Of a DNA stretch of 64,000 bases, positions 1 through 39,786 are shown piece by piece; position 1 is the stretch's first letter, and each line of letters starts with the position of its first letter. Position numbers and translations under genes: made by a program. The DNA is taken from IMG/VR virus record IMGVR_UViG_3300033153_010610, positions 1 through 64,000 of that record. The stretch is one strand, 5' to 3'. Below the pieces are notes generated by a model. The model did no database searches. It was not told where the DNA came from and worked only from the letters and a program-made list of their open reading frames with translations. The stretch is from a virus.

Positions 1-396
1 GTACCAGGGACTCTTCTCAGCCACCCTCTCTTCCTCGTTCCACTCGCTCTTGAGTTGCTCGGTGAAGGTCGGGCCGTCGTCGCCGGGTTCGACCTCGTCG
101 ATGCCCCAGTCCTCGTCAGTCATGCTGTTGAGCAGGGCGTCCAGAGCGACGTCCACTGCGAACATGAGGTCCGCGTGGTCTCTGGCGGTGGAGAGGTCCA
201 AGTCCCAGCCCTCTGCCTTCAGGAAGGCCTGCAGGTGGGTCAGGTCGGAGTGGTCACCCCACTCGAGCGCCGCCGTGAGGTTCTCGACCCGCTCGACGTC
301 AGACCTGAAGGCCTCGTCGGCCCACATGATGACGAGCAGAGCGTTGCCCATAATGGTAGGATTCTGGACGGTCTCAATTACGGTCTCGGAAGCCAT
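1..396 (-). CDS. Hypothetical acidic protein, C-terminus cut by window edge
   Basis: The frame starts with ATG at 396 and stays open for 132 codons to base 1, so the C-terminus lies outside the window. The start follows an AGGAG with the leader GGAGAAACACACG, a leader that recurs before several other genes here. The protein begins MASETVIETVQNPTIMGNAL and is rich in Asp and Glu, with mostly helical-looking sequence and no signal peptide or membrane segment. It is the first gene after the promoter at 424-452, so it probably opens a short leftward operon. I do not recognise a family. Confidence 0.75.
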   Translation of the reverse strand, partial: MASETVIETVQNPTIMGNALLVIMWADEAFRSDVERVENLTAALEWGDHSDLTHLQAFLKAEGWDLDLSTARDHADLMFAVDVALDALLNSMTDEDWGIDEVEPGDDGPTFTEQLKSEWNEEERVAEKSPWY

Positions 397-423
397 CGTG
401 TGTTTCTCCTGTGCTCAGCCAGA

Positions 424-452
424 ATACTGGCAGAGCCTGTGGTGCGTGTCAA
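424..452 (-). promoter_or_regulatory. Sigma70-type promoter, CCGGTTGACA class
   Basis: On the minus strand, TTGACA at 452-447 is followed after 17 bp by CAGTAT at 429-424. The start codon of the leftward gene is 28 bp further on. The motif at 3905-3933 has the same CCGGTTGACA core, the same spacing and CAGAAT as its -10. A perfect -35 repeated twice in matching contexts makes this a credible promoter. Promoter activity itself is inferred. Confidence 0.65.
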
Positions 453-468
453 CCGGTTTGTAGGTTAG

Positions 469-525
469 GGCGCTCCAGGGAATTGAACCCTGCGCGGACC
501 CTGGGTCCGCGGCACATGCAAGACG
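469..525 (-). ncRNA. tRNA-like element 1
   Basis: Read on the minus strand, it starts directly after the TAG of the upstream gene. A weak 4-bp hairpin has a 7-nt loop CUUGCAU, which would place U33 and anticodon UGC correctly. It is followed by a hairpin (GCGGA/UCCGC, loop CCCAGGG) and a perfect T-arm (CAGGG, loop UUCAAUU, CCCUG). The 3' flank GAGCGCC has no matching 5' acceptor strand upstream, where the coding sequence sits. It is therefore tRNA-derived but not a canonical tRNA. One of seven such elements at 469-7656. Confidence 0.5.
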
Positions 526-876
526 CTAGGCCACATTGAACTGGGCCTGGGACCACTTCTTCACCTTCGCCGGAGACCCCCAACACTTCGACGGTAGGTT
601 GCAGTAGACGAACCGGACTAAGTCTGGAAGGGCACTCAGACTGCGGGGGTCAGCCTTGACTACAGCGCTCAGGTCGTTCTCGACCACGGCAGTCAGGAAC
701 CCTCCCAAGGGGCGCCCGTAGTAGCCGTAGTTCACCAGGGCTTCGACGAGGTTACCCACGCCCATGTCGACAAGACACTGGGCAGACTCGACCTCGACCT
801 CACCCCAGTAGAGGCCAGCGGGCTCATCCCAGATGCCTGTGACGGTAGTCGTAAACTCTGTGTCGATGACACTCAT
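526..876 (-). CDS. Hypothetical protein
   Basis: 116 residues from the ATG at 876, which has GAGGAG 7 nt upstream and overlaps the TGA of the preceding gene (ATGA). Earlier in-frame starts are less likely because they lie inside the upstream gene. The protein is small and soluble, with no Cys cluster or membrane segment. It ends in the KKWSQAQFNVA region, which runs into tRNA-like element 1. No family recognised. It is the last gene of the leftward unit 2042-526. Confidence 0.7.
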   Translation of the reverse strand: MSVIDTEFTTTVTGIWDEPAGLYWGEVEVESAQCLVDMGVGNLVEALVNYGYYGRPLGGFLTAVVENDLSAVVKADPRSLSALPDLVRFVYCNLPSKCWGSPAKVKKWSQAQFNVA

Positions 877-1166
877 TGTGTGCTCCTCTCGTGATGCCTG
901 ATGAGTAGGTGCATCGCCCCGCGTATTGTGTGCCACGCGTAGACGACCCCGGGCTCCTCACTCCACGAGCACTCCCACAGGGACTCGGGCCACCCGTCCT
1001 CTCCCACCAGGGAGGTGAGAGTGAACTCGATGTGCACCCCCTCCTCGGGGAGTTGTACTCGGTAGACGTTGTACTCGTAGGGGTCCGCATTGAGGCTGTG
1101 CCCCAGGTCGAAGACCACGTTCCACAACATCTTGATGGTCTCTTTGGTGGTTTCTTGGGTTGTCAT
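873..1166 (-). CDS. Hypothetical protein
   Basis: 97 residues starting MTTQETTKETIKMLWNVVFD. The start overlaps the stop of the upstream gene (ATGA at 1163-1166) and its own stop overlaps the next start, so translation is probably coupled in both directions. It is soluble and rich in Trp and Glu, with no motif I can name. Unknown function in a string of small early genes. Confidence 0.7.
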   Translation of the reverse strand: MTTQETTKETIKMLWNVVFDLGHSLNADPYEYNVYRVQLPEEGVHIEFTLTSLVGEDGWPESLWECSWSEEPGVVYAWHTIRGAMHLLIRHHERSTQ

Positions 1167-1477
1167 GAGACGCGCACCGGTTGACCGGTCTCGTCGTCGT
1201 ACCGGTACTCGACGTTTGGGTCGAGTACCGGCCGGTCCATGCCCAACTCTCCCCGGAGGTACCCCATCATCTGAACCATCTCGTCGAAGAGTTGGATTTG
1301 CTCTGGGGTCATGTCCAGGACGTCCTCGGTGGCGTCAACGAACGCCTCGACCGCCTCCACGAGGCCGTCGCCATAGTTCGCGAGGCTGTCGAAGTTGCCT
1401 AGAAGCAGGTTCAACTGAGCCATCAGCGATCCCGCTATTGCGGGGTAGCAGACCTTACGGGTGTCGTTGTCGCTCAT
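1163..1477 (-). CDS. Hypothetical protein
   Basis: 104 residues beginning MSDNDTRKVCYPAIAG. The ATG at 1477 overlaps the upstream TGA, and its stop overlaps the next start. Upstream in-frame sequence is rejected because it belongs to another gene's region and is Arg-rich shadow. The middle is predicted helical (LLLGNFDSLANYGDGLVEAV) and the end is acidic. No family recognised. Confidence 0.7.
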   Translation of the reverse strand: MSDNDTRKVCYPAIAGSLMAQLNLLLGNFDSLANYGDGLVEAVEAFVDATEDVLDMTPEQIQLFDEMVQMMGYLRGELGMDRPVLDPNVEYRYDDETGQPVRVS

Positions 1478-1662
1478 TGTGTGTCCTCGGTGATGGTGGC
1501 GACCACTTCGCCAGTGTTCATGTTGATGACCGTGATCGGGAGAGACGCCTTGCCGGGTCTCCCTCGAGTCAGATCTGCATACGAATTTGCGCTGAGCTCC
1601 GCCTGGCGGGCGGACTTCCGGCGTGTCACCACGCCGAGGTTGGCTACGTGGATGGCGTACAT
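1474..1662 (-). CDS. Small basic hypothetical protein
   Basis: 62 residues beginning MYAIHVANLGVVTRRKSARQ, with a basic middle and a C-terminus containing VINMNTGEVVATITE. Two adjacent ATGs (1665 and 1662) overlap the upstream TGA. I prefer 1662 because GGAGG would otherwise sit almost against the start. Function unknown. The conserved-looking start/stop overlap at both ends supports a real gene despite its size. Confidence 0.6.
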   Translation of the reverse strand: MYAIHVANLGVVTRRKSARQAELSANSYADLTRGRPGKASLPITVINMNTGEVVATITEDTQ

Positions 1663-2042
1663 CATTCCTCCCAACTCGCCAGCAGTGCCCGCAGAGCCCG
1701 GACCGAATCTGTGATGGAGATGGCGGTGTCGTTGCCGTACTTCGCCATCCAGTAGGACGACGGAGGCTCCTCTTCCTGGTGGCACTCCACCAGATGAAGC
1801 TCGATGGGGAGCGCCTCTGGCGTGACCAGGTGCGAGTCACCCCTGCCCGGTGCGGCCAAGGGATTCAAATATCCCTGCCACACGCACTCGCAGACGTGGT
1901 CGAACCTCTGCACGCTGCACTCCATGTCTGCAACCATCATCCGCAGCGCCTCGATGGGGTTCGCCTCGACGGGGGACTCTTCGAGTGCCTCGTTGAGGAT
2001 GCGGATGGCGGTGACGATCGAGTCTCTGACTTTGGTGTCCAT
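1662..2042 (-). CDS. Hypothetical protein
   Basis: 126 residues starting MDTKVRDSIVTAIRILNEAL after an AAGGAGAGACAC leader. The N-terminal half looks helical. The middle has three Cys (MECSVQRFDHVCECVW), too irregular for a clear zinc site. It is the first gene after the hairpin at 2068-2087 and heads the coupled string 2042-526. No family recognised. Confidence 0.7.
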   Translation of the reverse strand: MDTKVRDSIVTAIRILNEALEESPVEANPIEALRMMVADMECSVQRFDHVCECVWQGYLNPLAAPGRGDSHLVTPEALPIELHLVECHQEEEPPSSYWMAKYGNDTAISITDSVRALRALLASWEE

Positions 2043-2067
2043 GTGTCTCTCCTTGTAAGTTCAGCAA

Positions 2068-2087
2068 CGGCCCCCCGAGGAGGGCCG
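2068..2087 (-). terminator. Intergenic GC hairpin
   Basis: CGGCCC and GGGCCG form a 6-bp stem with an 8-nt loop between two minus-strand genes. There is no U-tract after it, so it is not a classical intrinsic terminator. It may be a weak terminator or an RNA-processing or stability hairpin. A similar hairpin sits in the next gap at 2905-2920. Confidence 0.4.
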
Positions 2088-2105
2088 GAACTCAGCGCAC
2101 AAGGG

Positions 2106-2873
2106 CTAGGCTCGCTCGATGACCTCCCACATCGCGTCGCACTCCTCTCTGGTCAGTTCGTCCAGGTCCTCGGGCAGCAGGTTGATGTGGTTCTCCCACT
2201 CCTCGCACCCGTCGATGTGCTCGTCCATGAGCACGCTGACCTCACCATGACCTCCCTCGTCGGCACGTACGACCGTGCCCTCAGCCCCAGCCGGAACCTT
2301 GAAGTAGGGGTACGCGAGGTCGAACTCTTGGCGGAGCCTCACTCGGTCCCCGACATTCCAGTCCAGGAGTCCCGGTTCGACCTCTACCCAGATGAATCCG
2401 AGGCCCACGTCGTAGACGTTCTCGCCAGCATCGTCACACCACTCTGGGGACACGGGGTCGGCGGCGTCACCCTCCTCCTCCCACTCGCAACAGACGTGGA
2501 GCATGATGCACCCGGTCCCGTCGTCGATCAGGTTCATGGTCACCCCATCCAGGATGGCCACGACCTCAGGGAGCGTCTCAGCAGTCACGCGAGGCACCGC
2601 CCAGCCGTTCCACCTCGACCCATCAGTCCAGCCCTCGAAGGACGCACCGGACTCGTCCTCGTCTATCTCAAAGCGGGTCTTCACCCACTTCGACGCCGAG
2701 GTGACGAACGCCACGTGGTCGGCGAGGAAGGCCTCAGCCTCGTTCGCTGGGACCATGTGCTGGAACCCACCACCGGCGTAGTGGAAGCGCAGGGAACCGT
2801 CGTGCCGCGTCTCGACTCGGATGGCTGCTCCGGCATTGCCGACGTTCGCTTTGTGGATCATCAGGTCACTCAT
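2106..2873 (-). CDS. Hypothetical protein with SH3/KOW-like C-terminus
   Basis: 255 residues starting MSDLMIHKANVGNAG after a GGAGAGACACAC leader. The N-terminal two thirds is acidic and unrecognised. Around residues 165-235 it has a pattern typical of small SH3-like barrels: WNVGDRVRLR, then AGAEGTVVRAD, then a short strand with EVSVLMDEH. Such domains often bind nucleic acid or proteins, but that is inference. It lies between two GC hairpins, so it may be its own transcript segment. Confidence 0.7.
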   Translation of the reverse strand: MSDLMIHKANVGNAGAAIRVETRHDGSLRFHYAGGGFQHMVPANEAEAFLADHVAFVTSASKWVKTRFEIDEDESGASFEGWTDGSRWNGWAVPRVTAETLPEVVAILDGVTMNLIDDGTGCIMLHVCCEWEEEGDAADPVSPEWCDDAGENVYDVGLGFIWVEVEPGLLDWNVGDRVRLRQEFDLAYPYFKVPAGAEGTVVRADEGGHGEVSVLMDEHIDGCEEWENHINLLPEDLDELTREECDAMWEVIERA

Positions 2874-2904
2874 GTGTGTCTCTCCGTTCGTATGGTGAGT
2901 CCAT

Positions 2905-2920
2905 GGCCCCCGCAGGGGCC
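2905..2920 (-). terminator. Intergenic GC hairpin
   Basis: GGCCCC-CGCA-GGGGCC gives a perfect 6-bp stem with a tetraloop in the gap between two minus-strand genes. It lacks a U-run. Both gaps with such hairpins also carry the sequence CTCAGCGCAC next to the upstream stop codon, so they look related. Confidence 0.4.
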
Positions 2921-2943
2921 GCAGGCTCAGCGCACGACCGCCG

Positions 2944-3300
2944 CTACTTGCCTCGCTCTGCGATGGCCAGCGTCACCGCCTCGCAGAGGTACTCCCAGAG
3001 CCTCATCGAGACGTCAGGGAGATCCTCATCGTCGCCCTCCTCAGCCATCTTGTCGAAGAGGCCAGCCGCCTCGACCAAGTGGAAGACCGCCTCGCAGTCG
3101 AAGCTCGGATACATGTCGGTGATGTGGTCGTACACGTATCGTACGACCCCCTCCTCGCCATCAGTGATGGCGAAGGCCGCCTCGACCCTGTAGTCGGCCT
3201 CATCGTCCCACTCGGTCTCTTCGACCGCCCGGTACTCGACCTCGCGCCCACTCTTCTTCCGCTCGTAGCGCCCACAGAAACTGGTCTCGGTCTTAGCCAT
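2944..3300 (-). CDS. Hypothetical acidic protein
   Basis: 118 residues starting MAKTETSFCGRYERKKSGRE. Its start lies inside the end of the upstream gene (8-bp overlap). The centre (FAITDGEEGVVRYVYDHITD) alternates strand and helix. The C-terminal 50 residues look helical and acidic. No zinc site, no membrane segment and no family recognised. Confidence 0.7.
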   Translation of the reverse strand: MAKTETSFCGRYERKKSGREVEYRAVEETEWDDEADYRVEAAFAITDGEEGVVRYVYDHITDMYPSFDCEAVFHLVEAAGLFDKMAEEGDDEDLPDVSMRLWEYLCEAVTLAIAERGK

Positions 3301-3592
3301 TTTTCAATTCCTCCTCGTAGTGGTGTTGCAGGTTCTCCAGCGCCTCGATGGGGCTGGCGCCCACTCCGTAGCCCTTGTCGAGCGTCCAGGAAGCCTCCCA
3401 GACTGCGACCGGAATCCCAGCGCCGTCGACCACTCCAGCGAGAGCCACGGTGGCCCACTCGGTCGGCCCGAGCGCCACGCGAAACTCAGCACTGGAGTCG
3501 GTGGCCTCGAAGGCCGTTCCACCGTGCTGGAGGTCGTAGAGGAGGATTGCGAGATACCCCACGAGACTCGTGTAGTGTCCATGCCTATTCAT
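3293..3592 (-). CDS. Hypothetical protein
   Basis: 99 residues from the ATG at 3592 (MNRHGHYTSLVGYLAILLYD), which overlaps the upstream stop. The body GVVDGAGIPVAVWEASWTLD looks like a beta sandwich or hairpin, and the C-terminus resembles a short helix. This pattern is common in small phage proteins of unknown role. Confidence 0.7.
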   Translation of the reverse strand: MNRHGHYTSLVGYLAILLYDLQHGGTAFEATDSSAEFRVALGPTEWATVALAGVVDGAGIPVAVWEASWTLDKGYGVGASPIEALENLQHHYEEELKNG

Positions 3593-3878
3593 GGTCCCCC
3601 TCCAAGGCTGCGAAGTAGAGGTACTGGTCGAGGTCGGTCCGGATGGCCTCCAAGGCCTGCAGCGCGCGGTCATCCCCGGCGGTCGCTGCGCTCTGCAGCA
3701 CCTCGATGGCCTCGTCGGCCTGCACCATCGGACTGCGAGAGACGCGCAGGAGCGCCTCCACGAGGATAGTCCCGAGGTCCTCATCGCGGATGAGATCTTC
3801 AGCGGCCTCTAGGGCCCGAGGGCCCCCTTTCTCCCAGGTGTCCGCAAATTCAACAGCGAGTTTGGTCAGGTCACTCAT
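3585..3878 (-). CDS. Hypothetical helical protein
   Basis: 97 residues beginning MSDLTKLAVEFADTWEKGG with the leader AGGAGAAACACGC. The sequence is almost entirely helix-forming, with Ala- and Leu-rich repeats like TPR or HEAT-type small helical proteins. This is a resemblance, not a family assignment. It is the first gene after the promoter at 3905-3933 and starts the coupled set 3878-2944. Confidence 0.7.
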   Translation of the reverse strand: MSDLTKLAVEFADTWEKGGPRALEAAEDLIRDEDLGTILVEALLRVSRSPMVQADEAIEVLQSAATAGDDRALQALEAIRTDLDQYLYFAALEGDHE

Positions 3879-3904
3879 GCGTGTTTCTCCTGTGGCTCAC
3901 CGGT

Positions 3905-3933
3905 ATTCTGACGGCGCACCATGCACCTGTCAA
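3905..3933 (-). promoter_or_regulatory. Sigma70-type promoter, CCGGTTGACA class
   Basis: Minus-strand TTGACA at 3933-3928, 17-bp spacer, CAGAAT at 3910-3905 (4 of 6 matches to the -10 consensus), then the start codon 27 bp downstream. It shares the CCGG before the -35 with the promoter at 424-452. Both lie between a tRNA-like element and an AGGAGAAACAC leader. Confidence 0.7.
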
Positions 3934-3949
3934 CCGGAATGTGCGTTTA

Positions 3950-3999
3950 CTCCACGTCAGGGAATTGAACCCCCAGACGAGCGCAGCGCGCGCTCATCC
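3950..3999 (-). ncRNA. tRNA-like element 2
   Basis: On the minus strand it begins at the upstream TGA. A hairpin (GAGCGC/GCGCUC, positions 3979-3995) is followed by GUCU and a T-arm with loop UUCAAUU whose stem carries one mismatch at its base. No 5' acceptor strand complementary to the 3' flank ACGUGGA is seen upstream. Same layout as element 1: stop codon, hairpin, T-arm, promoter, leader. Confidence 0.45.
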
Positions 4000-4377
4000 T
4001 CACCAGTCGCAGTGCCCGGGTTGGGCATGGGTAGAGAGCCACCGAGCGAGGCGCTCGTTGTTGGCGTTGTCCTGCGCTCCGCGCTGCCGCAGTCGCAGGG
4101 ATTGCTTCCGCTCGTAGCAGTCCTGAGCCGCTTCGATCAGCATCTCGTCAGTGACCTCAGACCGACGGAACGATGGCCACTTGAGGCAGTTATGCCTCAG
4201 AGAATCCGCCATCTCGGCCTCGGTCTCGAAGTGAGCGAACCCTCGCCCAGTGTTCCCATCGAGCCACGTCTGCCAGATCGAGACGAGGCACTCTTCGAGC
4301 CCGGCCTCGTTGTCGTGATCGGGCTCGTCATCGTCGGATCGACGCTCCCAGGGACCTGTCTTGCCCCAGCGCTCCAT
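4000..4377 (-). CDS. Hypothetical helical protein
   Basis: 125 residues starting MERWGKTGPWERRSDDDEPD at 4377. The start is just downstream of the stop of the upstream gene and has GAGGGCTGAT before it. The C-terminal half is helical and basic, with many Arg and Gln. The stop is directly followed by tRNA-like element 2. No family recognised. Confidence 0.65.
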   Translation of the reverse strand: MERWGKTGPWERRSDDDEPDHDNEAGLEECLVSIWQTWLDGNTGRGFAHFETEAEMADSLRHNCLKWPSFRRSEVTDEMLIEAAQDCYERKQSLRLRQRGAQDNANNERLARWLSTHAQPGHCDW

Positions 4378-4378
4378 A

Positions 4379-4792
4379 TCAGCCCTCCTCGTGACGGTGT
4401 GTAGCCGTGGGCACAATTTTGACGCCGTTACGATCGAACTGGACGCCACCAATCGCCTCCGCGAAGCGCACCGCGCGGTCTTCCCACGGGGTCGGATTCG
4501 CTTCCCACGCAGACCACTTGGTCGAGAATCCTGCCCACCAGACGCCATCGCGCACCACGAGGGCCGCGATTTCGAGCGGGAGGGAGGGCAGATCCCCCGT
4601 CCAAAGCTCCGACTCAGGGAGGCACAGGTCGTCCTGTGCTTCCAAACTCTTCGCGTCACGCAGCGGGTGGCCCTGGGGCACACCCACGTAGACGTTGACC
4701 CAGGACTGGCCCAGGACTGAGTCGCGCGCGCTCAGGGCCACCATAGGCAGCCCGTTGGCGGTGCCGTTGAACATAATTCGGATGTCACGCAC
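4379..4792 (-). CDS. Hypothetical protein, possible phage-ABA-sandwich type
   Basis: 137 residues beginning MRDIRIMFNGTANGLPMVAL. The ending (WEANPTPWEDRAVRFAEAIG, followed by V-F-R-G-V residues) resembles the small phage proteins of about 110-140 residues that alternate helix and strand and end with DRAxRFAxAIGG-like text. That resemblance is weak. Its start overlaps the upstream stop by 8 bp. Confidence 0.7.
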   Translation of the reverse strand: MRDIRIMFNGTANGLPMVALSARDSVLGQSWVNVYVGVPQGHPLRDAKSLEAQDDLCLPESELWTGDLPSLPLEIAALVVRDGVWWAGFSTKWSAWEANPTPWEDRAVRFAEAIGGVQFDRNGVKIVPTATHRHEEG

Positions 4793-5108
4793 AGCGCACC
4801 TCCACTAGGGTCGGGATTGGTTGGATGGTCACGACGTCGCAGATCGGGCAGTCACACTCAGGGAGCGCAGCCCCGCACTCGTCACAGGAAGCCTCGTAGT
4901 CGCCGCAGCCGGCGCACGTCTGATCGAAGCCTCGCTCGGTGGTCTCGGCGCCCAGGAATTCAACCTGGACTCCGACGTCATCGCCATACTCATCCTGCAT
5001 GGCATCCACCACGCAGGGAAGACAGCACACCACCACACGGTTATGGTGGCGAGCGATCACTCCGAATGGTGGTCGCGAGTAGGTCGTGCAGATTGTCACA
5101 TCTAGCAT
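4785..5108 (-). CDS. Small zinc-ribbon protein
   Basis: 107 residues from the ATG at 5108, chosen because AGGAGAGTAAAA precedes it. The C-terminal half has two CxxC-like pairs: CAGCGDYEASCDECG, then CDCPIC. That gives at least six Cys, consistent with one or two bound zinc ions. The N-terminus (MLDVTICTTYSRPPFGVIAR) looks like a beta hairpin. Probably a nucleic-acid- or protein-binding accessory factor; the target is unknown. Confidence 0.65.
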   Translation of the reverse strand: MLDVTICTTYSRPPFGVIARHHNRVVVCCLPCVVDAMQDEYGDDVGVQVEFLGAETTERGFDQTCAGCGDYEASCDECGAALPECDCPICDVVTIQPIPTLVEVRCA

Positions 5109-5194
5109 TTTTACTCTCCTCGAGTGGGCGCACCTCTGGAGCTCCAGCTCAGCCAGGCGCAAGTGTGGCGTGGGTTTCACGCGATTCAACATGA

Positions 5195-5247
5195 CTCGCC
5201 GAGAGGGAATCGAACCCTCCCGCACGCAGGGACTAGATGGCCGGCGA
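5195..5247 (-). ncRNA. tRNA-like element 3, with full acceptor stem
   Basis: This is the only element with a clean acceptor pairing. UCGCCGG (5247-5241) pairs along all 7 positions with UCGGCGA (5202-5196), the last pair being G-U. The T-arm (GAGGG, UUCGAUU, CCCUC) is perfect. Only about 21 nt lie between, enough for one small hairpin (UCCC/GGGA around loop UGCGUGC) but not for both D and anticodon arms. The 5' strand overlaps the last codons and TAG of the upstream gene. Confidence 0.5.
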
Positions 5248-6072
5248 GGCGACCGACTTGACGCGGGACCGCTTGCCTCCTTCGCCGACCCCGTTACACA
5301 GACCGCAGTCGACACACTGTCGACCGTGGGTGTAGTACGGGCAGAGGACCTCATTGGGCATCAGATCGACGTCCGAGAATCGGCCCTCTTTGACGGCCAG
5401 ACGGTCCTCACCAATCAGAACCCTGTAGTGACGCCAGCCGAGACCCTTAGCCTCGGTCGCAGCCTCTTTGGAGATCCCGACCGACGCCATGGCATAGTGC
5501 TTGAGCCACTGAGCGTGCGCCTCGGTCCACTCTTCCTCGTAGAGGAGGTTCCACGGGGCGGTTAGTTGGAGCAGAGGCTCCGCATACTCTTGGGCCACAT
5601 TCGACGTGTTCCCGTAGGTGCCCCAACGGCCCCATTGACCATCGAGAGCGACCGCTGCCTCTTCCAGGGAGATCGGCTGGTCGTCACGCGTAGACTTCTC
5701 TTTTGACCTCTCGCCAAACATGGTCCGCACGTAACACCGCGGCATCTCTGCCCTACACTTCTCACACTTGCGTGTGGCCGGCATGACAGGGTGTTCATGC
5801 CTGCACTCGGGACACGTAGAGGCGACGAACGGGCGCAACGCGCACCCGTTACAGATCGCCTCATCGGCGCCCGACTTTTGGTTGTCGAGAGGACTCTCGC
5901 CATTGTCGACATACATGGAGACCTGAGGTACGGGCCCGGTCTTCGGGTTGTCGGACGGTTTCTTGACGCCGGACACTACAAGACGCACAGCGTGCCCCTT
6001 GATCGTGTCGCCCTTGAACAGCACAAGGCTGTTCTTGGTCGGGCGCCTCACCTTGGGTTTGGGTCTACGCAT
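5233..6072 (-). CDS. Cys-rich phage protein of unknown function
   Basis: 279 residues from the ATG at 6072 (MRRPKPKVRRPTKN), preceded by GAAGGAGG. A basic N-terminus leads to KTGPVPQVSMYVDNGESPLD, then a Cys-rich region with CNGC, CPEC, CEKC and a CYV motif. A second cluster near the end reads CPYYTHGRQCVDCGLC. The layout recalls a group of phage proteins with a KTG-PVP start and CPxxCPL/CYA motifs (DUF7227-like), but I cannot confirm that. Several zinc ions or an iron-sulphur cluster are plausible. Its end forms part of tRNA-like element 3. Confidence 0.7.
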   Translation of the reverse strand: MRRPKPKVRRPTKNSLVLFKGDTIKGHAVRLVVSGVKKPSDNPKTGPVPQVSMYVDNGESPLDNQKSGADEAICNGCALRPFVASTCPECRHEHPVMPATRKCEKCRAEMPRCYVRTMFGERSKEKSTRDDQPISLEEAAVALDGQWGRWGTYGNTSNVAQEYAEPLLQLTAPWNLLYEEEWTEAHAQWLKHYAMASVGISKEAATEAKGLGWRHYRVLIGEDRLAVKEGRFSDVDLMPNEVLCPYYTHGRQCVDCGLCNGVGEGGKRSRVKSVASPAI

Positions 6073-6075
6073 TGT

Positions 6076-6180
6076 AGCCTCCTTCATAGTTTCGTGCTGT
6101 GGTTAGTTGAGCCCAGGGATTTGAACCCTACGGACATGTCGGGTGTCCGTCGCACCAAGCGACCCAGGGAACAGAACAGG
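6076..6180. repeat. 105-bp direct repeat, copy A
   Basis: Nearly identical to 6386-6490 (offset 310 bp, a handful of substitutions). The unit spans an RBS-proximal sequence (CCTCCTTCATAGTTTCGTG), tRNA-like element 4 and the CAGGGAACAGAACAGG tail. One short gene (6185-6382) sits between the copies, suggesting a segmental duplication of an intergenic module. Confidence 0.8.
6106..6163 (-). ncRNA. tRNA-like element 4
   Basis: Minus strand: three consecutive hairpins. GUCGC-UUGGU-GCGAC (6163-6149) can also be read as a 4-bp stem with 7-nt loop CUUGGUG. Next is GGACA-CCCGACA-UGUCC (6148-6132), then a T-arm with loop UUCAAAU. The middle stem differs from element 5 by a C to U change that keeps pairing as G-U. 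No acceptor strand matches the 3' flank GGCUCAA. Confidence 0.5.
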
Positions 6181-6184
6181 GAAT

Positions 6185-6382
6185 TCACCCAGCGGAGGCG
6201 GTCTCTTTTTTGAGAGCAGCCTTCGCCTTCAGTTCTTCGATCCTTCCGTACTTGCCCCAGTATATCCCCTCCCGGGCGTCTGATAATTGAGCGCACTTCC
6301 ATCTCTCGCTGTTGTCAACTGGGAATGATGTGTGGCCGACAGGTCTACCTGTCGTCAGTAATCCTCGTGCAGAGCGGGACAT
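6185..6382 (-). CDS. Small hypothetical protein
   Basis: 65 residues starting MSRSARGLLTTGRPVGHTSF after GAAGGAGGTCATT. A middle segment (CAQLSDAREGIYWGKYGRIE) precedes a Lys/Ala-rich helix. Its flanks are the two copies of the 105-bp repeat. No family recognised. The strong SD and the position between duplicated modules support it as real. Confidence 0.6.
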   Translation of the reverse strand: MSRSARGLLTTGRPVGHTSFPVDNSERWKCAQLSDAREGIYWGKYGRIEELKAKAALKKETASAG

Positions 6383-6385
6383 AAT

Positions 6386-6490
6386 GACCTCCTTCATAGT
6401 TTCGTGCTGTGGTTAGTTGAGCCCAGGGAATCGAACCCTACGGACATGTCGGGTATCCGTCGCACCAAGCGACCCAGGGAACAGAACAGG
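6386..6490. repeat. 105-bp direct repeat, copy B
   Basis: Second copy of the module at 6076-6180. It contains tRNA-like element 5 and continues into CAGGACAGGACAGGGA, a short expansion of the CAGG motif not present in copy A. Confidence 0.8.
6416..6473 (-). ncRNA. tRNA-like element 5
   Basis: Paralogue of element 4, 310 bp away. The three hairpins are the same, with GGAUA-CCCGACA-UGUCC in the middle and T-loop UUCGAUU instead of UUCAAAU. Both changes respect the structure: a G-U pair in the middle stem, and R57 in the T-loop. This supports selection on RNA shape. Confidence 0.5.
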
Positions 6491-6502
6491 ACAGGACAGG
6501 GA

Positions 6503-6706
6503 TCAGTCTTCGTCGGGATAGGCACACTCGATTTCCTCACCACATTCGCAGTTGGTGGGGGTTTCCCAATTGACGTATCCAACGATCTCCACGCCAGTTT
6601 CCTCTGCTTCTTCTTTGGCGCATTCGTCGCAGAGAACCTCATTCTCATCGGTGAGGTACAAGAGTGGGTAACAACCCACGCTGGTGTACTTTGGGTATGC
6701 GGACAT
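6503..6706 (-). CDS. Small zinc-ribbon protein
   Basis: 67 residues from the ATG at 6706 (MSAYPKYTSVGCYPLLYL), overlapping the upstream TGA as TGATG. It has CDEC in the middle and CECGEEIEC near the end, a plausible four-Cys zinc site. This is the pattern of small phage proteins that start with a sequence-display segment, then ENEVLCDECA. Function unknown. Confidence 0.7.
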   Translation of the reverse strand: MSAYPKYTSVGCYPLLYLTDENEVLCDECAKEEAEETGVEIVGYVNWETPTNCECGEEIECAYPDED

Positions 6707-6933
6707 CACAGCCACCCCTTAGCCTTCGCTCGGACTTCACCGCGCACACAATTTTCCACCGTGACAAGGTGCCACAGCGGTCGTTTCGCGACCGCTAGCC
6801 TATAGGCCAAGCGCTCCGCGATTATCTGCGCACGACTGCGCCCAGTGTCGCGCAGTCTGTTTGAGAGGAGATAGGCTCGCGCAGATCCGACCATGGATCG
6901 TCGCCTCGGCCACATCTCTGCTGATCGTTTCAT
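6706..6933 (-). CDS. Small basic hypothetical protein
   Basis: 75 residues starting MKRSAEMWPRRRSMVGSARA after GTAGGAGGTCCAA. Strongly basic (many Arg) and helical, so RNA or DNA binding is possible but unproven. Its stop overlaps the start of the zinc-ribbon gene. Confidence 0.65.
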   Translation of the reverse strand: MKRSAEMWPRRRSMVGSARAYLLSNRLRDTGRSRAQIIAERLAYRLAVAKRPLWHLVTVENCVRGEVRAKAKGWL

Positions 6934-6942
6934 TTGGACCTC

Positions 6943-7152
6943 CTACTTGTTGAAGTGATGGCGTGGGCCCGGAAAGTCAGGGACCACGACCTGACAGCGC
7001 AACTCGTGCCCGCACCGGTACTCGGGCGCAGGGAGCATGAACACGGTGAAGGTGTTGAAAACCCTGTTTCGCTCCAGACCGAAGTCGTAATTCGGGAGCA
7101 ACATCGTCTGTTTCCGAGCGTAGGCGTACGCCTCGCCATAGTTCTTGAACAT
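6943..7152 (-). CDS. Small hypothetical protein
   Basis: 69 residues from the ATG at 7152 (MFKNYGEAYAYARKQTMLLP), with GAAGGAGGTTCTA before it. It ends GPRHHFNK. One CGHELRC motif is too small for a complete zinc site. No family recognised. Confidence 0.65.
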   Translation of the reverse strand: MFKNYGEAYAYARKQTMLLPNYDFGLERNRVFNTFTVFMLPAPEYRCGHELRCQVVVPDFPGPRHHFNK

Positions 7153-7201
7153 TAGAACCTCCTTCAATTAGGGAATGAGCAGGGATTCAGGGAACCCCAA
7201 T

Positions 7202-7278
7202 TGCGAACGGGGGGAATCGAACCCCCACACCCAGAATCGTCATTCCAGGTGTCTACCAAGACGCGCACATGAGACCGC
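7202..7278 (-). tRNA. Degenerate tRNA, possible Val(GAC), with 8-nt anticodon loop
   Basis: The most complete of the tRNA-like elements: 77 nt on the minus strand. It has a perfect 5-bp T-stem (GGGGG/CCCCC, loop UUCGAUU), a D-region with UUGGUAG, and an anticodon arm CUGGA/UCUGG. The loop AUGACGAU has 8 nt; with U33 in place the anticodon would be GAC. The acceptor (GCGGUCU with CGUUCGC) pairs at 5 of 7 positions, one of them G-U. It is either a decaying tRNA or a non-decoding tRNA-like RNA. Confidence 0.4.
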
Positions 7279-7285
7279 TATCGGT

Positions 7286-7335
7286 CAGGGAGCAGGGATT
7301 CAGGGAACCCCAGGGAGCAGGGAGCAGGGATCCGA
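7286..7335. repeat. CAGGGA repeat tract
   Basis: The plus strand has six irregular copies of CAGGGA/CAGGG with 2-5 nt spacers, between the degenerate tRNA and the stop of the gene at 7337. The same hexamer forms one side of the T-arm stem in the tRNA-like elements. Related tracts are at 7663-7738 and just outside elements 4 and 5. Confidence 0.7.
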
Positions 7336-7336
7336 C

Positions 7337-7579
7337 CTAGTTCGAGTGGAAGTACAGACCGTACACCCGCAAGGCCTTCTGTGCCTTGGCGAAGCGCGCA
7401 TAGCACCCGACCAGATCCATCTGCACATTGTGCAGGATGCCCGCCTGTACCTCGGACGGGTGGCGGACTGCCTTGTGAAGCGTCCGGAACCGGTCGGTGC
7501 ACTCGGTGTAGGCCTTGTGTGCGCTACGCGCCTCGCGCGTCAACTCTGCCACGCGGGATCCTGGGTAGTCGTCAGGCAT
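7337..7579 (-). CDS. Small hypothetical protein
   Basis: 80 residues starting MPDDYPGSRVAELTREARSA after ACAGGAGGGCAAA. Almost entirely helical, a probable two-helix coiled coil (residues 10-65). No Cys cluster or membrane segment. Unknown function. It ends at a CAGGGA repeat tract. Confidence 0.65.
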   Translation of the reverse strand: MPDDYPGSRVAELTREARSAHKAYTECTDRFRTLHKAVRHPSEVQAGILHNVQMDLVGCYARFAKAQKALRVYGLYFHSN

Positions 7580-7611
7580 TTTGCCCTCCTGTCGTGTGTT
7601 TCGTCAGGGAA

Positions 7612-7656
7612 TGCGCACGCAGGGAGTCGAACCCTCAGGGACCCGCCGATCGGGTC
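7612..7656 (-). ncRNA. tRNA-like element 7
   Basis: Minus strand: a perfect 5-bp hairpin GACCC-GAUCGGC-GGGUC (7656-7640) is followed by a T-arm (loop UUCGACU, four pairs plus one mismatch at the base). A weak hairpin with loop CCCUGCA lies just upstream. No acceptor pairing is seen for the 3' flank CGUGCGC. A CAGGGA tract separates it from the upstream stop. Confidence 0.4.
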
Positions 7657-7662
7657 ACGATT

Positions 7663-7738
7663 GCAGGGATCAGGGAGGCAGGGATCCCAGAGGCAGGGAG
7701 GCAGGGAGCAGGGGAGTCAGGGAGCAGGGATCTTCAGA
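7663..7738. repeat. CAGGGA repeat tract
   Basis: About ten CAGGGA-type units, mostly spaced as CAGGGAG(G/C) or CAGGGATC, running from the tRNA-like element into the last codons of the gene at 7717-7998. The C-terminal codons of that gene (LKIPAP) are therefore partly made of this repeat. Confidence 0.7.
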
Positions 7739-7998
7739 TACCTGTTTTGGGCATCCGCCACCCGCCCCTCGCGAATCGAAAGGGTGACGTCGATTCTGTC
7801 GTGGAACGCCGCAGACTTGGAGCCCACGTGCGACCACTGTGAGAATTCGCGGGGTAGGCTGGGCACAACGCTGGCGTTGCGCCGGAGTGCAGCCGCGACC
7901 GCTGCTGCGGTCTTGGCATCGGCATCGGGGGACGGGTCGCCGAGGTCCTCCCAGAGCCTGTCAAGTTCGTCCAACAATTGACGCGTTGATCCGTTCAT
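7717..7998 (-). CDS. Small hypothetical protein
   Basis: 93 residues from the ATG at 7998 (MNGSTRQLLDELDRLWEDLG) after CAAGGGGAAAA. A helical N-terminus leads to DAKTAAAVAAALRRNASVVP and then a strand-rich end (DRIDVTLSIREGRVADAQN). This is the rightmost gene of the leftward array; its upstream side is the repeat-rich non-coding region. No promoter is obvious there. Confidence 0.65.
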   Translation of the reverse strand: MNGSTRQLLDELDRLWEDLGDPSPDADAKTAAAVAAALRRNASVVPSLPREFSQWSHVGSKSAAFHDRIDVTLSIREGRVADAQNRYLKIPAP

Positions 7999-8059
7999 TT
8001 TTCCCCTTGCGCACATTGTGCGCTCATGTAGGTGCCCAGGTGCGCATGTAGGCGCCTAG

Positions 8060-8124: not shown

Positions 8125-8244
8125 ACATGTAGGTGGAGTGCATTAACGTGGAGTGGAGTGGAGTGCATTAACGTGGAGTGCATTAACGTGGAGTGGAGTG
8201 GAGTGGAGTGGAGTGGAGTGCATACATGCACTCCACCTACATGT
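8125..8244. repeat. GGAGT tandem repeat framed by a 19-bp inverted repeat
   Basis: ACATGTAGGTGGAGTGCAT (8125-8143) is matched exactly in inverse at 8226-8244. The 82 bp between hold about eleven GGAGT pentamers and three copies of the 15-mer GTGGAGTGCATTAAC. The right arm overlaps the perfect 18-bp palindrome CCACCTACATGTAGGTGG (8233-8250). This can form a large cruciform or serve as an array of protein-binding sites. Confidence 0.85.
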
Positions 8245-8262
8245 AGGTGGCGCGCATCACTT

Positions 8263-8302
8263 CACCGCACCTCACTTCACCTCACTCCACCGCACCTCAC
8301 TT
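8263..8302. repeat. 25-bp-period direct repeat
   Basis: CACCGCACCTCACTT occurs exactly at 8263-8277 and again at 8288-8302, with CACCTCACTC between. The tract is C/T-rich on the plus strand and continues the asymmetry of the neighbouring repeats. Confidence 0.8.
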
Positions 8303-38095: not shown

Positions 38096-38704
38096 ATGAA
38101 CGAGCGCCAATTGACGATCGGGTTCGATAGTGCTGAAGACGCGACCTTCACGTTGTGTTGCTACGAGCAGACCATCCCCAGGGTTCTGTCTGCCGAAGCA
38201 GTCTCTGACTTGAGGAAGGCAGTCCAGCAAGCCTTGGCCCTTGGGGTCGATGTGGACGAGTGCGCCCCCTCTCTCTTGAGAGCAGTGCGTATGACCGCAG
38301 CCGACCGAGAGGCTCAATCGTACTCGGGACAACTGTCGTACGCGACCCCACAGTTCGGTTCCATCGTAAAGTCGGGGATGCCCGCGCCGTCTCTGAGCAA
38401 GAATATGCGTCAGCCCTATCTGGCTGCATGCATCAATCGTACGGCGATGGACCAAGTGGGGAAGTACTTCGACGACCACAACACCTTCGCCAAGTCGATG
38501 GGTGTTGGCATGACGTACCCCACGGTTCCACCCTGGAAATCGGACACAATGGTGGGGCATGTGATGGGGGCGTTGCTCGCCAAATCATCCGATGCCAATC
38601 TCATGACGGCCATTGACGAGAACGGAGAAGCCTGGGTAAAGGACTACACCAGGACCGTTCTGGATGATGCGCGTCGTCGCATGTTTCCCAAAGTGAGTTC
38701 CTGA
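38096..38704 (+). CDS. Hypothetical protein in head module
   Basis: 202 residues starting MNERQLTIGFDSAEDATFTL after TTAGAGAAGCAAA. Beta-rich N-terminus, then helical regions with DREAQSYSGQLSYATPQFGS. No domain recognised. The final 40 bp of the gene were copied downstream in the tandem duplication that created the next two genes. Confidence 0.7.
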   Translation: MNERQLTIGFDSAEDATFTLCCYEQTIPRVLSAEAVSDLRKAVQQALALGVDVDECAPSLLRAVRMTAADREAQSYSGQLSYATPQFGSIVKSGMPAPSLSKNMRQPYLAACINRTAMDQVGKYFDDHNTFAKSMGVGMTYPTVPPWKSDTMVGHVMGALLAKSSDANLMTAIDENGEAWVKDYTRTVLDDARRRMFPKVSS

Positions 38705-38716
38705 AGGAGATCTGGG

Positions 38717-39220
38717 ATGACCATTTCCGCACTGACCGAAGAACAAAAGCGGCTGCTCGAGCGGCATGACCCGGCCCTTAAGAAGGCCAATCTCGCGACT
38801 CACTTGGACAACCTCACAGACGACGTCCGCCTGCGTCAAGCGACGGCGACCATCGGTGCTGTTGGGACAGAGACGGCCGGCGCGCCGGACTACTACGACG
38901 TGCCCGTGACGGTGACGGACAATGATGGCGACGCGCTAACCGCGGCAGTCAACGTCCGCGTCCGCATCTTTGATGATGTGGGTCTCGCAACTGTTTCGAC
39001 AGTAGGTGACCATCGTCTGACCGAAGATGGCGCCACGGGTGACATCCATGTCGACAACGTTGTGGACGCCGTGTATCGAACCAGCGCAACCGGGACACTT
39101 GTTGTCCGAGTCGAAGATGTTGCTGGCGGATCTGGAGATTGGATCTACGCGATCGTGACCGACGGCGGGAACGAGTCCGTGCGCATCGTCGGTGGTACTT
39201 TTGCTGTGGAATTCAACTAG
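38717..39220 (+). CDS. Beta-rich protein, duplicated copy 1
   Basis: 167 residues starting MTISALTEEQKRLLERHDPA. A 30-residue helical N-terminus is followed by a beta domain with PVTVTDNDGDALTAAVNVRV and later VVRVEDVAGGSGDWIYAIVT. The fold looks Ig- or jelly-roll-like. It could be a head decoration or structural protein by position. Paralogous to the next gene. Confidence 0.7.
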   Translation: MTISALTEEQKRLLERHDPALKKANLATHLDNLTDDVRLRQATATIGAVGTETAGAPDYYDVPVTVTDNDGDALTAAVNVRVRIFDDVGLATVSTVGDHRLTEDGATGDIHVDNVVDAVYRTSATGTLVVRVEDVAGGSGDWIYAIVTDGGNESVRIVGGTFAVEFN

Positions 39221-39279
39221 CATCAGATGATGCGCGTCGTCGCATGTTCCCCAAAGTGAGTTCCTGAAGGAGATCTGGG

Positions 39280-39786
39280 ATGACCACTTCCGCACTGACC
39301 GAAGAACAAAAACGACTGCTTGACCGGCATGACCCGGCCCTCAAGAAGGCCACTCTTGCAACGCACCTGGACAACGTCACAGACGACGTCCGCCTGCGTC
39401 AGGCGACGGCAGTGGTCGGTGCGAGAGGAACAGAGACGGCCGGTCCCCCAGACTACTACGACGTCCCCATTCAGGTGAATGATGCCGATGGTGTCGCTGT
39501 CACTGCGGCAGTCAATCTCCGGGTGCGCATCTTCGATGATATTGGTCTTGCGACCGTCGCAACCGTTGGTAACCATCGCCTGACCGAAGACGGGGTCACT
39601 GGTGATATCCATGTCAACGACGTCATCGACGCTATCTACCGTACGACCGCGGCCGGCGCCCTGGTTATCCGGATTGAGGATGTCGCAGGCGGGTCGAACC
39701 AAAACCTCTACGTTTTGGTGACTGATGGCGGAAATGAGTCCTTCCGCATCATCGGTGATTCCTTCTTAGTTCTCTTCAACGCCTAG
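39280..39786 (+). CDS. Beta-rich protein, duplicated copy 2
   Basis: 168 residues starting MTTSALTEEQKRLLDRHDPA. It aligns along its whole length with the copy at 38717, with most differences in the beta domain (PIQVNDADGVAVTAAVNLRV). Both copies are intact with good ribosome sites, so both may be functional, perhaps as two forms of one virion component. Confidence 0.7.
   Translation: MTTSALTEEQKRLLDRHDPALKKATLATHLDNVTDDVRLRQATAVVGARGTETAGPPDYYDVPIQVNDADGVAVTAAVNLRVRIFDDIGLATVATVGNHRLTEDGVTGDIHVNDVIDAIYRTTAAGALVIRIEDVAGGSNQNLYVLVTDGGNESFRIIGDSFLVLFNA

Follow-up and report, generated by a model that had tools for sequence, protein, structure and literature searches.

Candidate tRNA-like punctuation elements in a phage gene array and between the genes of unrelated phages

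What are T-arms of the transfer RNA (tRNA) type doing between the genes of a phage in which no tRNA is found? The question is raised by a window of 64,000 bases (positions 1-64000 of the 86,968-base virus record IMGVR_UViG_3300033153_010610, classed as linear), whose left end carries a minus-strand array of genes interrupted by seven elements, E1 to E7 (Table 1). Scanning the whole record with the pattern GGGTTCRANTCCC (GGG-TTCRANT-CCC) returned seven exact matches, all on the minus strand and within 478-7634, where base composition predicts 0.03 for the entire record; there was none elsewhere in the record, and a reversed control pattern gave none at all. With one mismatch allowed we found eight T-arms, against a shuffle mean of 0.82 and a shuffle maximum of 3. 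All seven lie inside intergenic gaps, on the sense strand and ahead of the next leader, and the array has exactly seven gaps longer than 100 nucleotides (nt), each with exactly one T-arm; its 63-nt and 70-nt gaps hold only plain GC-rich hairpins. An earlier note on this DNA, made from the sequence alone, had reported a T-arm in each of seven minus-strand gaps and had proposed comparison with shuffled sequence as a check, and both the count and the excess are borne out. The T-loop reads TTCRANT in 7 of 7, the inner three stem pairs are invariant, the two outer pairs vary, and 94% of stem cells are paired. Because loop and inner stem are invariant or conform to consensus while the rest of each element differs, the sequences suggest that selection acts on the T-arms.

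We give even odds to the reading that tRNA-like elements punctuate the co-transcribed genes of this phage, in an array that is derived or eroding. The array would be transcribed as one long RNA, host ribonuclease (RNase) P would cut at the 5' side of an element, RNase Z or other tRNA 3' enzymes would cut at its 3' side, and the cuts would leave separate messages with defined and perhaps stabilized ends. Reported RNase P substrates include hairpins that combine an acceptor stem with a T-stem and T-loop, the phage M3 and C4 RNAs, and mRNAs (PMC11143913); together with RNase Z the enzyme also releases mascRNA, and plant mitochondrial t-elements from mRNA ends (PMC11658184).

This reading draws on well-formed tRNA-like elements (TLS) that we found between genes in phages unrelated to the window phage by the tests made, when viral contigs were scanned by pattern and tRNA genes were removed with ARAGORN. 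The minimal TLS consists of a 12-base-pair (bp) acceptor/T helix, a T-loop and a linker with a D-loop-like GG, in some cases with an extra hairpin and usually with no anticodon arm. One contig without any tRNA gene (L330/G042) has nine minimal TLS on one strand, such as ACGACCA-ctggtgggtat-TGCGG[TTCGATT]CCGCA-AGGTCGT; most are followed within ~50 nt by a hairpin, the Shine-Dalgarno motif GGAG and an ATG, and several have a strong hairpin upstream. Three elements in another phage (L267/G044) lie on the strand of a gene array that faces the structural genes. Further elements occur in L327/G043, L305/G045, L374 (four candidates), L378 and L371 and in the group L370/L379/L382/L390/L395, where the outer acceptor pairs and the D-like hairpin, compared by eye, change together (GGGGTG/CACCCC, GGGAGT/ACTCCC, GGCACT/AGTGCC), L395:6406 pairing less well than the rest of its group. 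A strict TLS finder returned none in shuffles and none in 1.1 megabases of phage loci picked for another reason, so the class is not background. The position between genes, the conserved acceptor/T helix, the loss of the decoding part and the leader behind fit an RNA processing signal.

Covariation supports these helices. Across eight distinct G042 copies, which are mutually related, 96 of 96 pairs are standard and 9 of the 12 pairs are changed on both sides, with 40-50% pairing in slid controls; the covariation score is 0.774, while shuffles give 0.277 and slid versions no more than 0.19. A diverse set of nine elements from four phages has 108 of 108 standard pairs and 11 of 12 covarying pairs (score 1.109 versus 0.262), and its linker GG is invariant, which may reflect the expected contact between D-loop and T-loop. 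One of our scans imposed TGGT...ACCA, one base off the L267 elements, and missed these yet yielded new elements; as the scan imposed those four bases, their pairing in its direct matches is not evidence, and covariation was counted on elements found without this constraint. A covariance model built from the nine elements (R1), whose seed and test sets are biased alike by the T-arm search, recovers a full-length TLS at G045:15082-15123 (44.5 bits, E 7e-9) in a phage that is not in the seed. Compensatory change shows that the RNA shape is kept, so the well-formed elements need an explanation even if those of the window are remnants.

Some apparent relatives did not hold up or were of other kinds. 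A candidate at G002:4086 (L120:3950-4110) reads as a tRNA-Leu with a ~90-nt insertion between its 5' half and T-arm, and what looked like matches in Tank and Wilde, two Arthrobacter phages, proved not to be T-arms. Searching a phage collection with the arrays and proteins of L267 and G042 gave no match, and Rfam at gathering scores made one match over six sources, taking an element of G046 that lacks an anticodon arm for a tRNA at 45 bits.

Several results weigh against placing the window elements in this class. R1 returns all seven T-arms among 16 weak matches in the window, five of them on top, but these matches cover the T-arm part only (E 0.14-9.6). Acceptor pairing beats shuffles in one of the seven, E5 (p 0.012; 5196-5247), whose 5' strand lies within the last codons of the upstream gene, and the combined p over six independent elements is 0.33; E1 is at p 0.995, and pairing of the acceptor with downstream sequence instead was not supported. 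For the hairpins preceding the T-arms, an advantage in stability over shuffled sequence is not clear (combined p 0.07): taking the 45 nt ahead of each T-arm, E2 and E7 alone fold better, and weakly so. G003 is the only distant capsid relative with a comparable element, a single one, and most of the tested records have none or true tRNAs. In view of the partial R1 matches and the unsupported acceptors we call the window elements derived or TLS-like, not full members; with acceptor and hairpin weakly supported, what is robust in the window is the T-arm and where it lies rather than a complete tRNA-like fold.

The earlier note had anticipated part of this. Its statement that one element alone pairs fully at the acceptor agrees with the result for E5. 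It had described a preceding hairpin, mostly with a 7-nt loop, before each T-arm; from E1 to E7 the loops measure 5, 4, 7, 7, 7, 5 and 3 nt, so that the 7-nt loop holds for three of seven. It had also doubted that these are functional decoding tRNAs, and rightly so: ARAGORN finds no tRNA in the record, no Rfam model, tRNA included, scores at its gathering threshold anywhere in the window, and the 7-nt loops of E3/E4 and E5 (CCCGACA in E3, in an anticodon-like hairpin) have no U33. Nor does ARAGORN find a transfer-messenger RNA (tmRNA), and only the T-arm of E2 matches the tmRNA model. Processing by RNase P or RNase Z, which the note had proposed, is favoured by the gap placement, the well-formed covarying TLS elsewhere and the RNase P literature (PMC11143913), and disfavoured by the six unsupported acceptors; elements poor in acceptor pairing may or may not still work. 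As for related phages, for which the note had asked about conservation, single-protein scans for close relatives yielded nothing beyond a 4-kb contig whose capsid protein is identical, and relatives by capsid profile, all distant, have true tRNAs or none, apart from the single TLS-like element of G003.

Cultured phages carry a conserved form. A query derived from L325 matched Streptococcus thermophilus phages, 2972 and Sfi21 among those with related elements, and a 121-nt query from one S. thermophilus phage matched 315 records, a measure of gap similarity, of which 17 were inspected. In the inspected phages the gap between a DUF1340-type gene and an ArpU-type late activator commonly holds two T-arms. 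The first, at the stop codon of the upstream gene, forms part of a minihelix with as many as 12 bp (GGCTTAT-AGTGG[TTCGAGT]CCACT-ATAAGTC), and the second to a TLS with an AACAGCG/CGCTGTT acceptor. Strains SW1 and SW9 have lost the 5' acceptor strand of the latter and kept its T-arm, in parallel to the window. Streptococcus prophages, including those of S. pseudopneumoniae and S. infantis, have TAGCCTG-atcggtagcac-CAGGG[TTCGACT]CCCTG overlapping the upstream stop codon. The conserved copy in cultured S. thermophilus phages makes a direct test possible. Two further S. thermophilus phages, C0 and SW5 (L354, L366), look recombinant between the two T-arms of the gap.

In some phages, then, the 5' strand of the element overlaps the stop codon of the gene before it: in the Streptococcus prophages (AATGTAG-CCTG), in the S. 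thermophilus phages and in the window at 5196-5247 and 469-526. An RNase P cut there would remove the stop codon, free the next message and switch the upstream gene off through non-stop decay, an extension of the punctuation reading under which many phages would divide polycistronic transcripts by TLS devoid of an anticodon arm, and which we regard as unlikely.

With six of the seven window elements lacking a supported acceptor, erosion of a former array is still a serious alternative. The elements would then be functionless, decaying pseudogenes of a tRNA or TLS array, found in gaps since coding sequence excludes them. The lost acceptors, the likeness of E2 to tRNA-Leu genes, the still cloverleaf-like E3 and E4 without U33, the true tRNAs of distant relatives and the 5' acceptor loss in SW1 and SW9 all speak for decay; but all seven T-loops are intact despite the divergence of the rest, every gap above 100 nt has exactly one element, and compensatory change maintains the class elsewhere. 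On balance we consider pure remnants somewhat unlikely. Chance likeness, in which simple 3'-end hairpins (terminators or exonuclease blocks) happen to resemble T-arms, is very improbable in our judgement: plain hairpins do occupy the same place in the two shorter gaps, and promoter-like sites follow E6 and E7, yet 7 of 7 elements keep a TTCRANT loop that a terminator would not require, and no T-run follows them.

Two explanations would give the T-arm another task. tRNA 3' ends serve many integrases, and T-arm sequences might be recombination or integration points at which gene cassettes are built and shuffled; the shared orientation of the T-arms at block boundaries, the duplication of E3/E4 and the apparent recombinants C0 and SW5 would agree with this. 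DNA exchange, however, needs no RNA-helix covariation of the kind found in G042 and others, and no integrase was noticed near the array, around which no systematic or directed integrase search was made; we rate this account as improbable. A role as decoy or sponge for proteins that bind or cut tRNA, among them defence nucleases and enzymes that modify the T-arm, would account for the T-arm being the intact part and for the hairpin with a 7-nt loop kept in E3/E4, but does not predict the exact placement in gaps before leaders. Since the best-formed relatives have no anticodon arm, anticodon nucleases would find no target in them, and decoys for tRNA-cutting defences, which the earlier note had suggested, are unlikely as a general account; decoys of any sort seem to us quite improbable.

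If punctuation is the function, it has known counterparts. RNase III sites between the early genes of phage T7 cut the early polycistronic transcript into units, a likeness in outcome with a different structure and enzyme. Phage tRNA gene arrays share the T-arm consensus, and many phages intersperse tRNAs with genes; the window, in contrast, has no decoding tRNA, and TLS relatives usually have no anticodon arm. Plant mitochondrial t-elements are likewise tRNA-like, non-decoding and located at mRNA ends, but they are mitochondrial homologues of whole tRNAs whose processing has been observed, whereas the phage elements mostly comprise an acceptor/T helix or a T-arm and their processing is inferred (PMC11658184). 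The mascRNA / MEN beta RNA (Rfam RF01684) is also a reduced tRNA-like RNA cut from a longer transcript; it is mammalian, and the weak shape matches to it in E7 (21.9 bits, cut-off 42.5), E2 and E4 all fall below the gathering score. The phi80 M3 RNA, the P1/P7 C4 antisense RNA and T4 gene 32 mRNA are phage transcripts that serve as RNase P substrates, but are single RNAs rather than T-loop arrays between genes (PMC11143913).

A literature search found no description of such phage arrays, although limited coverage of subscription papers and preprints makes this weak evidence of absence; tRNA punctuation is a known principle, of which these phage arrays seem to represent a new variant. Phages may divide long messages by means of RNA signals of this class, which seems to have been largely overlooked and which tRNA finders and Rfam mostly miss. 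Should cleavage occur at the elements, message punctuation of the tRNA kind, a principle known from mitochondria, would be in use in bacterial viruses, with consequences for our view of how mRNA ends are defined in phages and of what RNase P naturally cuts besides tRNA.

Table 1 Gene array, elements and hairpin-bearing gaps at the left end of the window; exact T-arm cores are from the pattern scan
Feature	Position	Strand	Exact T-arm core	Composition	Basis
Gene array	1..8016	-		~20 mostly small genes, in blocks separated by E1-E7	reading of genes
E1	7612..7665	-	7622-7634	T-arm 7620-7636, GAGGG[TTCGACT]CCCTG; hairpin GACCCG-ATCGG-CGGGTC, 7640-7656	sequence
E2	7202..7267	-	7212-7224	T-arm 7210-7226, GGGGG[TTCGATT]CCCCC; 11-bp hairpin; D-loop-like TTGGTAGA; partial acceptor	sequence, fold
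E3	6417..6483	-	6426-6438	T-arm 6424-6440; D-like hairpin GTCGC-TTGGT-GCGAC; weak acceptor; copy of E4	sequence, fold
E4	6107..6173	-	6116-6128	T-arm 6114-6130; other copy of the E3 repeat	sequence
E5	5196..5247	-	5205-5217	T-arm 5203-5219; full 7-bp acceptor TCGCCGG/TCGGCGA	fold, shuffle test
E6	3951..3998	-	3960-3972	T-arm 3958-3974; GC-rich hairpin before T-arm	sequence
E7	469..526	-	478-490	T-arm 476-492; hairpin 493-511	sequence
Gap	2874..2943	-		plain GC-rich hairpin, without T-arm	sequence
Gap	2043..2105	-		plain GC-rich hairpin, without T-arm	sequence

The elements differ in detail. E2 comes nearest to tRNA-Leu genes in Microbacterium phages, at 82% over 48 nt, without reaching significance. 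E3 and E4 are copies within a 103-bp repeat of 97% identity that extends to the next start codon, so that the duplicated unit comprises element, leader and the next gene's start codon, placed ahead of two genes, an arrangement that speaks for punctuation. E6 is followed at 3933-3905 by a promoter-like TTGACA-17-CAGAAT. For E7 the predicted fold includes a bulged acceptor, GCG-CTT/GAG-CGC, from the upstream stop codon onward, which is not significant.

Matches to phage families come from the terminase, portal, major head, head protease and tail sheath of the record, and its portal and head protein share 33-38% identity with those of SPO1-like phages (Herelleviridae). The last gene of the array runs off the contig, and the array probably continues beyond its left end. 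Blocks consist of overlapping or closely packed genes, every junction other than the seven long and two short gaps overlapping or spanning at most 9 nt, and gaps make up 13% of the array. No intrinsic terminators were found on its minus strand, a point in favour of punctuation. Most array proteins tested have no Pfam match; that of gene 5233-6072, which ends in E5, is a member of an uncharacterized phage family.

The array is also rich in TCCCTG, with 41 copies on the coding strand of 1-8016 against 1.5 expected and one on the other strand. Sixteen of them lie inside genes, in all three frames, where shuffling of synonymous codons predicts 3.3. The motif overlaps the 3' side of most T-arms, which do not explain its abundance. 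In the gaps at 7580-7730 and 7280-7336 it forms runs at 7-8-nt spacing that are C-rich and G-poor, as expected of candidate Rho loading sites. A scan for relatives by tandem TCCCTG found only tandem repeats and the tRNA-rich phage L191, which is unrelated and has 16 tRNA genes in 9.4 kb with GATCAGGGATCAGGG-type repeats adjoining. Between the array and the plus-strand genes, 8189-8290 holds tandem GGAGT/CACTCC repeats in a ~98-bp inverted repeat, and the structural gene region contains diverged tandem duplications of ~76-88% identity (window 38663-39757 and L001:1400-3400).

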